From Natronomonas gomsonensis (GTDB lineage: Archaea > Halobacteriota > Halobacteria > Halobacteriales > Haloarculaceae): a stretch of 64,000 nucleotides of DNA. The number at the start of each line of letters is the position of its first letter. Within the stretch, counting starts at the first letter, position 1. A model generated the notes under the pieces. It saw nothing but the letters and a program-made list of their open reading frames with translations, ran no database searches and had not been told where the DNA came from. The stretch lies in the NCBI RefSeq assembly GCF_024300825.1, contig NZ_CP101323.1, positions 2,728,001 to 2,792,000 of the forward strand, written 5' to 3'. Made by a program: the position numbers and the translations under genes. Of this stretch, positions 47,409-60,137 are shown piece after piece.

Positions 47409-47756
47409 TTACAGGAACTCCCTGACTTCGGAGTACCACATGTCGTGGTGGTCCAGCGCATCGATGTGGCGGGCGATTTTCGTGGCGATAGCGTGCCAAC
47501 AGAGCTCCGTTGGGTCCTCTGGGTCGAGGTTGTAGCGGGAATCCTCACACTCGCAGGTGCCGTCCTCGACGACGTGTTCCTCGGAATGGCCGACGACGAC
47601 GGTGAAATCGCGGTACTCCTTGACCCGCTCTTCACCGACGGCCTCGATGGCTCGGACTCCGCGGTCGCCGTGGGTGGCGATGATTCGGTCGACGGCGTCG
47701 CTGGTGAGTTCTCCGTCGGCTTCCAGTTTCGCCTCCCACTCCTCGACCGGGTTCAC
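47409..47756 (-). CDS. SWIM zinc-finger protein
   Basis: A 115-residue protein whose second half contains CEC...14 residues...CWH (about 70-90), i.e. CxC-xn-CxH, the SWIM zinc-finger pattern, followed by a helix ATKIARHIDALDHHDMW. SWIM fingers bind DNA or proteins; small single-domain versions are common haloarchaeal hypotheticals. The upstream half is acidic with a helical EAVGEERVKEYRDFTVVVGHS segment. Confidence 0.8.
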   Translation of the reverse strand: MNPVEEWEAKLEADGELTSDAVDRIIATHGDRGVRAIEAVGEERVKEYRDFTVVVGHSEEHVVEDGTCECEDSRYNLDPEDPTELCWHAIATKIARHIDALDHHDMWYSEVREFL

Positions 47757-47796: not shown

Positions 47797-47932
47797 CGAA
47801 CTTTTTCATCGTCGGGTTCGCGCGAAGCGCGAACCACTCCTCGAAAAACTTCGATGAAAAAGGCGCGACCGAGGGCCGGAGGCCTGAGGTCGCGTGAACC
47901 GCGCGCCGTAGGCGCGCGGACGTTCGTGCTCA
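47797..47932. repeat. Three-hairpin intergenic element, copy 1
   Basis: Hairpin A: GGTTCGCGC (47815-47823), GAA loop, GCGCGAACC (47827-47835). It is enclosed by CTTTTTCATCG (47801-47811) and its perfect complement CGATGAAAAAG (47852-47862). Hairpin B: CGCGACC (47864-47870) with GGTCGCG (47888-47894) around an inner GGCC-GGA-GGCC. Hairpin C: CCGCGCGCC (47899-47907), GTA, GGCGCGCGG (47911-47919). It lies upstream of the leftward SWIM gene and downstream of the leftward gene at 47974-48969. Confidence 0.75.
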
Positions 47933-47973: not shown

Positions 47974-48969
47974 CTACAGCGCCAACAGAGCGATTCCCGC
48001 CGCCCCGAGCCCTGCCAGCACCGCCCCAATCCAGAGGTTTCGACCGGTCGCCTTCCGCAGTCCCGCGGCGACCTCCTCGTAGGGACCGCGAGCGACGAAC
48101 GCCCCCTCGCGTTCGCATGTGAGGAGCGGTCGGCCGTACTCCCCGCCGACGGTCGCCTCGCCCGCGACGACGACGCTCTCGCCGGGTTCGACGACGTTCT
48201 CTTTGAATCGGAGTTCCCGCTCGGCCCGGCCATCGGTGGTCAGTGGGAGGTTCGGGAACGGTGCGCGGTCGCCACGGAGATGCTCCGGTACTGGTTCGCC
48301 TTCCTCGACGACGAGTTCGTGTTCCGCCGGCCCGCCGGTCGTCGTCCCCTCGGGGAGGTTTTCGGTGTCGGTCGGACTCCCCGCTGCGAGGCTGAGCCAC
48401 GCGCCCTCTGGGTCGACGTTGGCGGTCCCGTCGTCGGTCTCGACCGCGAAGGGCGTCCGCTCGATAGTGAAATCGGTCGTGAAATATGTTCCGTAGGGTC
48501 GCAACGGCTGTTGTTTGTACTGGGCGACGGAGGCGGTGTAGCAGACGGCGTCCCGTCCGGTGACGGGCGTCGTCAGCGTCTCGCCGTCGGCAGCGGCCGT
48601 TCCACCGACAGCACTGGGACCGCTCGTTGGGAGGCCGTCGCCGCTGCCCGCTTCGAGGAGGTTCGCCCGGGGACGGTTGGCGATAGCCGTCGCGCCGACA
48701 AGCAGGCCGCCGGCGAAGATGCCGGTGACGGCGGCCCATCCGAATCCGACGCTGTCCGGGCCGTTGGTCACGACCGGGACCAGCGAAAGCGAGGCCACCA
48801 AGACCGCGGGGAGCGTTTCCCGTCGAGAGACGCCGGACTCGTAGGCTCGGAAGGTGAGCGTGGCGGCCAACGCACCGTCCGGGAGCCACCGAGACAGAAC
48901 CCACCAGAAGGCGCCACCGACGAGGACGGCCGCGACGGCGTATGTGAATCCGTCGACGGGTTCGACCAT
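47974..48969 (-). CDS. Membrane protein with GIDE-like domain
   Basis: A 331-residue protein with N-terminal hydrophobic segments (about 8-27 and 45-95) and a C-terminal TM (about 310-330). Between them, [23 protein letters not shown] followed by [26 protein letters not shown] (paraphrased positions about 125-200) recalls the GIDE domain of MUL1-type membrane proteins, later followed by [23 protein letters not shown]. There is no RING finger. Function unknown. The ATG at 48969 is used because the extension to 49062 is basic and non-acidic. Confidence 0.7.
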
Positions 48970-49070
48970 GCTGTCGGCTCTCCATTCCCCGACGACAAAA
49001 ATCGACTGCTCGATTCGGTCGGCGATACGCAAACGTATCCCTTTTCGGGGGCCACCCCACAACGGAGGGT

Positions 49071-53006: not shown

Positions 53007-54380
53007 ATGACGAACGACAACGTAGCAACCGACGGTGGTCTCACCCCGGAAGCACAGAGCGTCCTCGACGAAATCGAAGAGAAGAACGTCGACTTCCTTC
53101 GCCTGCAGTTCACCGACATCCTCGGTACGGTGAAGAACGTCTCCGTTCCCGCCGAACAGGCCGAGAAAGCCTTCACCGAGGGTATCTACTTCGACGGCTC
53201 CTCTATCGAAGGGTTCGTCCGCATCCAGGAATCGGACATGCGGCTCATTCCCGACGCGAGCACCTTCGCGGTGCTGCCGTGGCGGAACACCGACGAGCAC
53301 GCTTCGGCCCGGATGATTTGTGACGTGTACAACACCTCGACGGGCGAACCGTTCGAGGGTGACCCGCGGTACATCCTGAAGCAGGCCCTGCAGCGTGCCC
53401 ACGACATGGGATATAAGGTCAACGCCGCCCCCGAACCGGAGTTCTTCCTGTTCGAGGAGGACGAAGACGGCCGCGCGACGACGAAGACGAACGACGCCGG
53501 CGGCTACTTCGACCTCGCGCCGAAGGACCTCGCCTCCGACGTTCGCCGCGACATCATCTACGGGCTGGAGGACATGGGCTTCGATATCGAGGCCTCCCAC
53601 CACGAGGTCGCACAGGGCCAACACGAGATCAACTTCGAGTACGACGACGCCCTGACGACGGCCGACAACGTCGGCACCTTCCGGACGGTCGTCCGCGCCA
53701 TCGCGGCCCAACACGACCTCCATGCGACCTTCATGCCGAAACCCATCGCCCGAATCAACGGCTCGGGGATGCACACCCACATCTCGCTGTTCACCGAGGA
53801 CGGCGAGAACGCCTTCCACGACGGCGACGACGAGTTCGACCTCAGCGAGGAGGCCAAACAGTTCACCGCGGGCATCCTCGAACACGCCCCGGCGATTACG
53901 GCCATCACCAACCCGACGGTGAACAGTTACAAGCGTCTCGTCCCCGGCTACGAGGCCCCCGTCTACGTCGCGTGGTCCGACCGCAACCGCTCGGCGCTCA
54001 TCCGCAAGCCGGCCGCCCGCGTGCCGGCCGCCTCCCGCATCGAGGCTCGCTTCCCCGACCCGTCGTGTAACTCCTATCTCGCTTTCGCCGCGCTCATCCA
54101 CGCCGGTCTCGACGGCATCGAGCAGGGACTCGACTGCCCCGACCCGGTCCGGGAGAACATCTACGAGTTCGACGAGCAGAAACGCGAGGAGTACGGCATC
54201 GAGACACTGCCACAGAACCTCGGCGAGGCCGTCGAGGCGCTCAAGGAAGACGAAGCGATTTACGGCGCGCTCGGCGACCACATCGGTCCGAAGTTCGTCG
54301 AGGCCAAAGAGGCCGAGTTCAAGGAGTACCTCGTCGAGGTCTCCGAGTGGGAACTCGACCAGTACCTCGAGACCTTCTGA
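53007..54380 (+). CDS. glnA: Glutamine synthetase
   Basis: A 457-residue type-I glutamine synthetase, which assimilates ammonium into glutamine with ATP. Markers: [37 protein letters not shown] (near 65), [13 protein letters not shown] (near 140), [18 protein letters not shown] (near 197), [17 protein letters not shown] (near 245, ATP site), [24 protein letters not shown] (near 310) and [21 protein letters not shown]. No adenylylation-site NLYDL-type motif is seen at the usual Tyr position. It ends just before the second three-hairpin element. Confidence 0.97.
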
Positions 54381-54382
54381 AA

Positions 54383-54510
54383 CGAACTTTTTCCGCCTCG
54401 GGTCGCGCGGAGCGCGACCCCTCGGCGCAAAAACTTCGATGAAAAAGGCGGCGACTCGCTTCGCTCGTCGCCGTGAACCGCGCGCCTGCGGCGCGCGGAT
54501 GCTCCGCTCT
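54383..54510. repeat. Three-hairpin intergenic element, copy 2
   Basis: Hairpin A: GGGTCGCGC (54400-54408), GGA, GCGCGACCC (54412-54420), enclosed by CTTTTTC and GAAAAAG. The linker AAAAACTTCGATGAAAAAGG is identical to copy 1. Hairpin B: CGGCGAC (54449-54455) with GTCGCCG (54467-54473). Hairpin C: CCGCGCGCC (54478-54486), TGC, GGCGCGCGG (54490-54498). Begins three bases after the glnA stop. Confidence 0.75.
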
Positions 54511-54711: not shown

Positions 54712-55149
54712 TTACTGTTCTTCGATTTCGTTATTACCGTTAACTTTGTCCGCAGTCGAATCGGTTGACCTGCCGTGTTTTCGCATTGACCAACGATAGA
54801 GATATTGAAGAACCGGTTGAAGTTCGGACGCACCTTCCGTCGCTGTATACTGTACATAGGGTGGTACTGTCTCGCGTACCTCTCGCGTGAGCAACCCGAA
54901 CTCTTCGAGCTCCTGTAGTCGTCGGGTCAACGTATTCGGTGGGATACTGAGCTGAGTCTCAAGTTCCTTGAATCGCCATGGACCAGCCTCGTCGGCGAAC
55001 TGGGCAAGGACTTCAAGTCCACGCGACCGGCTGAGTACCTCGAACAACTCCAAAATCGTTGGGCCTTCCGAACGGATTTGTTCGCAACTCACGTCTCCGA
55101 TCTGCTCTGCGCTGAAATCTGTCTCTGAAAGTGTAGCTCTATCGCTCAT
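54712..55149 (-). CDS. HxlR-like winged-helix regulator
   Basis: A 145-residue protein with the winged HTH of the HxlR/ArsR type: ELFEVLSRSRGLEVLAQFAD, WRFKELETQLSIPPNTLTRRLQELEEFGLL (positions about 60-95) and a YVQYTATEGASELQPVLQYLYRW wing and dimer helix. The ATG at 55149 is used; the longer frame includes the operator. It is divergent from a MaoC-domain gene and an exact palindrome lies between them. AT-richer than core genes. Confidence 0.82.
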   Translation of the reverse strand: MSDRATLSETDFSAEQIGDVSCEQIRSEGPTILELFEVLSRSRGLEVLAQFADEAGPWRFKELETQLSIPPNTLTRRLQELEEFGLLTREVRETVPPYVQYTATEGASELQPVLQYLYRWSMRKHGRSTDSTADKVNGNNEIEEQ

Positions 55150-55187
55150 AGTTGCAGAGAGGTCCCGAGAGACAAATACATCACGCC

Positions 55188-55213
55188 ACTTCCAGAGGTG
55201 GAAGTCACTTCCA
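55188..55213. promoter_or_regulatory. Triple ACTTCCA operator between the regulator and maoC genes
   Basis: ACTTCCA (55188-55194), GAGG, TGGAAGT (55199-55205), C, ACTTCCA (55207-55213): a perfect 7-bp-arm palindrome plus a third half-site. It lies 38 bp upstream of the regulator start and about 20 bp upstream of the maoC TATA box, where a repressor or activator of both genes would sit. Confidence 0.6.
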
Positions 55214-55232
55214 GTGATGGGATCTCGCACAC

Positions 55233-59099: not shown

Positions 59100-60137
59100 A
59101 TGTACGACCGCCTTGCGGACCTACGGCTCGTCGTCGACGGTTACGACCTCGAGGCCGCCCAACGCGACGTATCGAGCGGATTCACGCGTGTTTCCACGAC
59201 GATTTCGCTGTTCGGCGACGGCGAGACCGGTCGCGGCGAGGACGTGGGGTACGACGCCGACGACCAGCGCCTGTTTCAGAACACCTACGAAGACGGCGGC
59301 CTCGACCTCTCGGGAGAGTACACGCTCGATTCCTTTTCGGCCCACCTCGATTCACTCTCGCTGTTCCCCGAACCGCCGACCAACGAGGCGGATGCCCACT
59401 ACCGGCGGTGGGCCTTCGAGAGCGCGGCGCTGGATTTGGCGTTGCGGCAGGCCGACACCGACCTCGGGAGCGTCTTGGACCGGCGTTACGACCCGGTCCG
59501 GTTCGTCGTCAGCACGCGTCTGGAGTCGCCCGAGCGCCTCGATGAGATTCGTGCGGTCGCTCCCGACGCCGAGTTCAAACTCGACCCCACCGAGGAGTGG
59601 GACGAGGCGTTCTGTGCCGCGGTCGCCGAACGCGGCGGCGTCCGGACGCTGGATTTGAAGGGTCACTACGAGGGGACCGACGTCGACGGCTCCGTCGACC
59701 CCGACCTCTATCGACGGGTCGCAGAGACGTTCCCGGAGGCCGTCATCGAGGACCCCGCGGTGACCGACGAAACCCGATCCATCCTCGAATCGGTTGCCGA
59801 CCGCCTGTCGTGGGACGCACCGATAACGAGCGTCGAGGACATCGAGGCGCTGCCGTTCGAACCCAACTGGCTCAACATCAAGCCCTCGCGGTTCGGCACA
59901 GTCGAGTCGCTTTTGGCCGCCATCGACTACTGCGAGAGAAACGACATCTCGATGTACGGCGGCGGGCAGTTCGAACTCGGCGTCGGTCGCGGACACATCC
60001 AACTGCTCGCCTCGCTGTTCTATCCCGAGACGCCGAACGACGTGGCGCCGGGAGCGTACAACGCGACGGACCTCGACGAGGATCTGCCGACGAGCCCGCT
60101 CGACGCACCCACTTCCCCCGTCGGGTTCCGGTGGTAA
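59100..60137 (+). CDS. Enolase-superfamily protein (OSBS/epimerase-like)
   Basis: A 345-residue protein with an N-terminal capping domain and C-terminal barrel of the enolase superfamily. Barrel signs: FKLDPTEEW, TLDLKGHYEG, VIEDPAVTDE (metal Glu-Asp), APITSVEDIEALPFEPNWLNIKPSRFGTVES (positions about 240-270, Lys in NIKPSR) and a closing GGGQFELGVGRGHIQ. Metal-binding Asp/Glu are less complete than in characterised muconate or OSB enzymes, so activity and substrate remain open. Confidence 0.78.
   Translation: MYDRLADLRLVVDGYDLEAAQRDVSSGFTRVSTTISLFGDGETGRGEDVGYDADDQRLFQNTYEDGGLDLSGEYTLDSFSAHLDSLSLFPEPPTNEADAHYRRWAFESAALDLALRQADTDLGSVLDRRYDPVRFVVSTRLESPERLDEIRAVAPDAEFKLDPTEEWDEAFCAAVAERGGVRTLDLKGHYEGTDVDGSVDPDLYRRVAETFPEAVIEDPAVTDETRSILESVADRLSWDAPITSVEDIEALPFEPNWLNIKPSRFGTVESLLAAIDYCERNDISMYGGGQFELGVGRGHIQLLASLFYPETPNDVAPGAYNATDLDEDLPTSPLDAPTSPVGFRW

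Follow-up and report, generated by a model that had tools for sequence, protein, structure and literature searches.

A dispersed multi-hairpin intergenic repeat of haloarchaea, a candidate bidirectional transcription terminator

Two intergenic sequences in the window (the whole stretch of 64,000 nucleotides of the Natronomonas gomsonensis genome that was analysed) are copies of a real haloarchaeal repeat family, which is undescribed as far as the searched literature reaches. We propose that this dispersed repeat serves haloarchaea as a bidirectional transcription terminator or insulator. The probability of this reading is put at about 0.6, with termination activity predicted from the layout of the element and its place beside genes.

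Architecture and distribution of the family

Both window copies lie on the plus strand, copy 1 at 47797..47922 (the end is approximate; covariance model 49.8 bits, E = 2.3e-10) and copy 2 at 54383..54503, running from CGAAC to GGATGCT (50.6 bits, E = 1.5e-10). The original prediction of a common architecture was borne out. Each copy begins with CGAAC and a T5 tract (47797..47806 and 54383..54392), followed by hairpin A, whose apical stem is GGTTCGCGC-GAA-GCGCGAACC in copy 1 (47815..47835) and GGGTCGCGC-GGA-GCGCGACCC in copy 2 (54400..54420). The conserved linker AAAAACTTCGATGAAAAAGG comes next (47844..47863 and 54429..54448); read on the minus strand it is CCTTTTTCATCGAAGTTTTT, with two T5 tracts. 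Hairpin B (47864..47894 and 54449..54473) carries in copy 2 a TC/TC internal loop, which is GA/GA on the minus strand. The spacer GTGAA then leads to hairpin C (47899..47919 and 54478..54498), behind which copy 2 closes with the end motif ATGCT. As first described, the copies differ in hairpin A by one pair changed on both sides (GGTTCGCGC versus GGGTCGCGC), and in hairpin C by the loop, GTA in copy 1 and TGC in copy 2, between identical arms CCGCGCGCC and GGCGCGCGG. The folding z-scores of both copies ranged from -4.4 to -5.7, with none of 200 shuffles as good, and this held for both strands. The hairpin C frame, GAACCGC...GCGGATGC, is also matched on its own at 59370-59395 of the window, where the other parts of the element are absent.

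Across the family, the consensus reads CGAAC-TTTTT-(hairpin A)-AAAAACTTCGATGAAAAA(G)-(B module)-G(n)GAACCGC-(hairpin C)-GCGGATGC(T), and the multi-hairpin element is about 130-200 bp long. B modules are of several types, beginning with GACAC, TAGCGGC, GCGGCGGCGGG or, as in the window, GGCGGCGAC. A longer form with additional hairpins in the B module is the commonest, and the window copies are short variants. Among 84 distinct aligned sequences, standard pairs filled 94.8% of pair cells, double-sided changes occurred at 15 of 20 pairs and the covariation score reached 0.313, where shuffles scored 0.077 and slid controls no more than 0.033, in an alignment that was fitted to the covariance model and thus leans towards it. 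The pairs of the T5 tract were almost invariant across these copies, and T5 tracts are found on both strands. The outer stem had been drawn as CTTTTTC with GAAAAAG; its 11-bp extension is present in copy 1, but pairing with the second A5 does not hold generally. The general outer stem is CGAA-C-TTTTT(G/C)(C) paired with the first A5 (AAAAA-C-TTCG), in which T5 faces A5, CGAA faces TTCG and the C/C between them is mismatched. This re-pairing is backed by double changes in the 84 sequences (9 of CG to GC, 9 of GC to AU and 10 of GC to CG).

Further copies beyond the window pair were recovered by searches of the genome and of haloarchaeal relatives, among them searches with a covariance model built from hairpin A and the linker. 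Of the named relatives, Natronomonas sp. CBA1123 and N. gomsonensis had the same flanks. A strict hairpin A pattern found 7 copies in the genome and its reversed control none, a slightly looser pattern found 9, and the covariance model, at E ≤ 1e-4, raised this to 21 or more separate loci (23 rows, 2 of them reverse-strand echoes). Copy-rich congeners gave about 30 to 80 model rows each at E ≤ 0.01, counts that include reverse-strand echoes of the palindrome and therefore exceed the number of distinct loci. The strict pattern was present in 63 of 391 genomes of a class sample. In a phylum sample, 16 of 197 genomes had matches, all within several families of the window's own order, and no family member was found in the non-haloarchaeal genomes sampled. 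Loose-pattern matches in bacteria were taken as chance and excluded by a G+C filter. An Rfam scan of the window gave no match above the gathering score, and no description was found in the literature on haloarchaeal repeats, terminators and the linker sequence, in which subscription papers were only partly covered. The view that no named family fits therefore stands.

Placement at gene ends and the strand that folds

The position of the element was assessed at 96 independent sites, 62 with a plus-strand and 34 with a minus-strand left neighbour. At 37 of the 62 plus-strand sites the distance from the stop codon to CGAAC was only -2 to 5 nt, and at 37 of the 62 no more than about 10 nt lay between the stop codon and the start of the left T5; of 298 control genes, only 24 had a T5 in the 12 nt next to the stop. 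Copy 2 is a case in point. It starts 2 nt after the stop codon of the glutamine synthetase gene glnA (53007..54380, plus strand; PF00120, E = 8e-138). An HxlR-type regulator gene at 54712-55230 faces glnA, with copy 2 between them. For minus-strand left neighbours the main distance peak lay 38-42 nt upstream of the start codon, which in a leaderless haloarchaeal gene would be just upstream of BRE and TATA. Copy 1 is flanked by two minus-strand genes, lying on the stop side of 47974-49062 and 40 nt upstream of the start of 47409-47756. These sharp distances were not seen at 25 of the 62 plus-strand and most of the 34 minus-strand left neighbours, in part because the gene calls are crude, resting on codon usage with no gene finder.

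Among spaces between neighbouring genes, convergent ones were enriched (31/81 element sites versus 50/267 control gene pairs, p = 5e-4) and divergent spaces depleted (8/81 versus 61/267, p = 0.01), with p-values that are optimistic because copies share ancestry. The controls were gene pairs of the same loci; the quoted p-values use all pairs, and both contrasts grew stronger under stricter controls. Non-coding RNA genes are also among the neighbours. The SRP RNA gene stands directly left of the element in three SRP matches, with an orthologous flank in three more genomes, and this site carries the element in six genomes of the genus; at another site the element begins a few nucleotides after tRNA-Met.

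These placements agree with what is expected of T-tract terminators, namely a T5 at the expected transcript end, gene 3' ends favoured and divergent promoters avoided. A Haloferax reporter showed termination of 95% of transcripts with a T5C tract and of 59% with one hairpin (PMC7237163). In the plus-strand direction, transcription of the left gene would stop at the T5 tract a few nucleotides past the gene end. In the minus-strand direction, transcripts coming from the right gene would cross hairpins C and B, both GC-rich, before stopping at TTTTTCATCGAAGTTTTT, and the reading order of that strand, hairpin C, hairpin B and TTTTTCATCGAAGTTTTT, is the layout of an intrinsic terminator. Where the left gene is on the minus strand, the element would end just upstream of its core promoter and may block read-through into the gene. 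Against a terminator, a T5 that lies near the stop codon and ahead of hairpin A makes the plus strand differ from bacterial intrinsic terminators. Further, both neighbours are on the plus strand at 21/81 sites and divergent at 8/81, so the minus-strand terminator is not always needed. Of the roles that had been suggested for the element, a 3' end element comes closest, with the context indicating termination; the suggestion of a dispersed haloarchaeal element with covarying stems and regular placement relative to genes was likewise supported.

The loops of the hairpins indicate which strand folds. In hairpins B and C, plus-strand triloops counted over independent sites were TNC in 38 cases and GNA in 6 (p = 9e-7). 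Internal loops of the two hairpins on the plus strand were TC/TC in 118 cases, with GA/GA not among the classes listed (one representative per site), and over all 137 copies there were 201 TC/TC and 3 GA/GA. The minus strand therefore bears GNA loops and tandem GA, both of which stabilise hairpins. From these features, hairpins B and C are predicted to be built for the minus strand. Together with position, the strand-specific GNA loops and tandem GA suggest that the structure is under selection.

A folded minus-strand RNA is also what a structured regulatory or processing domain in 3' UTRs, bound by protein or cut by an endonuclease, would present instead of a terminator. We consider such a domain quite improbable: with its stem rewritten and its loop inverted, hairpin A retains no sequence-specific site, the neighbours are unrelated, with SRP RNA and tRNA among them, and Rfam offers no matching family. 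Hairpin A behaves differently from B and C. Its triloops were GNA or TNC in 46 of 64 cases, a share that fell to 6 of 31 among the remaining triloop palindromes in the window, and its strand bias was not significant (29 versus 17, p = 0.1). Both properties would be expected of DNA minihairpins, and hence of a structure acting at the DNA level (a cruciform, or a nucleoid or replication-related site) in which hairpins work as single-stranded DNA. Nevertheless, the strong strand bias of B and C and the tight link to gene ends fit RNA better, and a DNA-level role seems highly improbable. Read as a terminator or insulator, the element is a candidate, and a recognisable one, for how haloarchaea keep neighbouring transcription units apart, the SRP RNA gene included.

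Hairpin turnover at orthologous sites

Orthologous sites were defined by their flanks, which grouped into 15 clusters, 14 of which span different genomes. At five orthologous sites in sister genomes the arms of hairpin A were equal and the loops exact reverse complements of each other (AAC/GTT, TGT/ACA and, three times, TGC/GCA); at a sixth, GGA/TCC loops were accompanied by an arm mutation. For differing loops, the chance rate of reverse complementarity is 0.096 (p about 2e-5). The change of a loop into its own reverse complement between perfect arms, as seen here in hairpin A, is a reported mark of template switching (PMC8794818, PMC8604942).

Larger replacements were found as well, and turnover of the hairpins at fixed sites was unusually fast overall. 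Whole hairpins or B modules were replaced at orthologous sites at which, as with the loop inversions, the linkers and most flanks were 90-100% identical, and B modules of unlike type occupied the same site in sister genomes. Copy 1, for instance, has a different B hairpin at the orthologous site of the related genome G252. At the SRP site, genomes G000 and G252 had flanks 99.0 and 97.5% identical, linkers 100% identical and the next 96 nt 100% identical, but the 26-nt core of hairpin A was just 62% identical. Loop inversions and replacements of this kind are what template-switch mutation, combined with exchange among copies, would be expected to leave. By the first route, short-range template switching would invert loops and equalise arms; by the second, hairpin or B-module cassettes would be swapped with other copies via the conserved linkers. 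A non-homologous module placed between shared linkers would need exchange with another copy, and the presumed cassette donors are indistinguishable because arm types such as CGGCGCGC are common to the three sister genomes.

Assembly bears on some of these comparisons. In G252, a draft, contigs C2, C14, C35 and C55 (loci L208, L209, L214 and L217) end at or beside elements; it seems that hairpins interrupt its assembly, and some copies may be hidden. Hairpin assembly error is accordingly a caveat for G252, and the inversions between G000 and G391 come from two assemblies of two contigs each. In G391, the glnA flank and a copy of the element appear twice in the same surroundings (C1:17134/C2:1747986 and C1:26296/C2:1757148), which reflects either a recent duplication or overlapping scaffolds. 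At one locus, L027, about 159 bp containing the element are duplicated in tandem (positions 1500 and 1659).

The original prediction had taken covariation to imply selection on a folded structure. The covariation itself is confirmed, but this step is not supported in that form, as the double-sided changes are largely unit events at orthologous sites (inverted loops, replaced hairpins or modules), of a kind that template switching or conversion can yield with no stepwise compensatory selection, and therefore covariation alone is no proof of selection on the stem. Stepwise compensatory evolution was rejected as sole cause, since arms and loops change as units. Tentatively, and with somewhat less than even confidence, we suggest an undescribed family of modular two-way terminators with exchangeable stems, in which pairing and linkers are kept and, at fixed sites, inversion or swapping of hairpins outpaces the divergence of the flanks; the covariation would then be mostly made by mutation and not by stepwise compensatory selection. 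The family also makes it possible to count loop inversions and stem replacements over a series of naturally replicated hairpins. It bears on whether compensatory stem changes prove selection or are often single template-switch events, and RNA discovery can be misled by covariation alone.

Mobile repeats and comparison with known systems

A selfish mobile repeat, similar to PATE, REP or MITE, could also account for dispersal, with a transposase supplied in trans, hairpins serving transposition and gene borders representing tolerated insertion. Within one genus, some species have 0-4 matches and others tens, and occupancy differs at some orthologous sites, both in keeping with mobility. Some Natrialbaceae copies are nested in a MITE-like unit bounded by GTGCTGAATACAGAG on the left and CTCTGTATTCAGCAC on the right (L150, L098, L113, L135 and L144); GTGCTGAATACAGAG forms a 15-bp terminal inverted repeat in L150, with similar ones in the other four, so a transposase may carry copies there. 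We nevertheless regard a selfish repeat as unlikely. The spacing of -2 to 5 nt is not given by insertion tolerance alone, and occupation of the SRP site is shared by six genomes of the genus. A search with joined flanks at orthologous sites yielded neither a clean empty site nor a clean insertion that had duplicated its target, and element-free orthologous sites bear other sequence after the stop codon. At copy 5 (G000:C1 2278824; L195:1999-2490), two facing elements of about 490 bp in total stand in place of a short stretch present in G391 and G252. An IS605/PATE origin was rejected, because none of the 23 TnpA/TnpB matches (13 OrfB_IS605 and 10 Y1_Tnp) had a copy, by model R1 or end motifs, within about 1.5 kb.

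The PATEs of Haloquadratum (PMC3119063) are likewise short, non-coding, heterogeneous and haloarchaeal, with palindromes near both ends, as hairpins A and C are here. Their palindromes, however, match IS605-type transposon ends (PMC3119063), a link that was not found for the present element, whose position is tied to gene ends. In Natronomonas copies the ends, CGAAC and GCGGATGCT, are not inverted repeats, which sets them apart from MITEs. REP and BIME sequences of bacteria are also dispersed intergenic palindromes, but our element is a larger three-part unit in which linkers are conserved and stems are not; no association with RAYT (Y1) was found, as the copy-rich genome G288 has one Y1 match with no element nearby. 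Hairpins ascribed to template switching in rRNA genes (PMC8794818) and yeast genes (PMC8604942) are alike in loop or spacer inversion and paired changes of the two arms, whereas here such changes are repeated within one archaeal intergenic family and joined by whole-cassette replacement. The T-tract terminators of Haloferax volcanii (PMC7237163) resemble the element in the T5, often T5C, after gene ends, and hairpins occur upstream there too. Those terminators are T stretches, some with upstream hairpins, whereas the element described here is a multi-hairpin unit with T5 tracts on both strands, repeated genome-wide.
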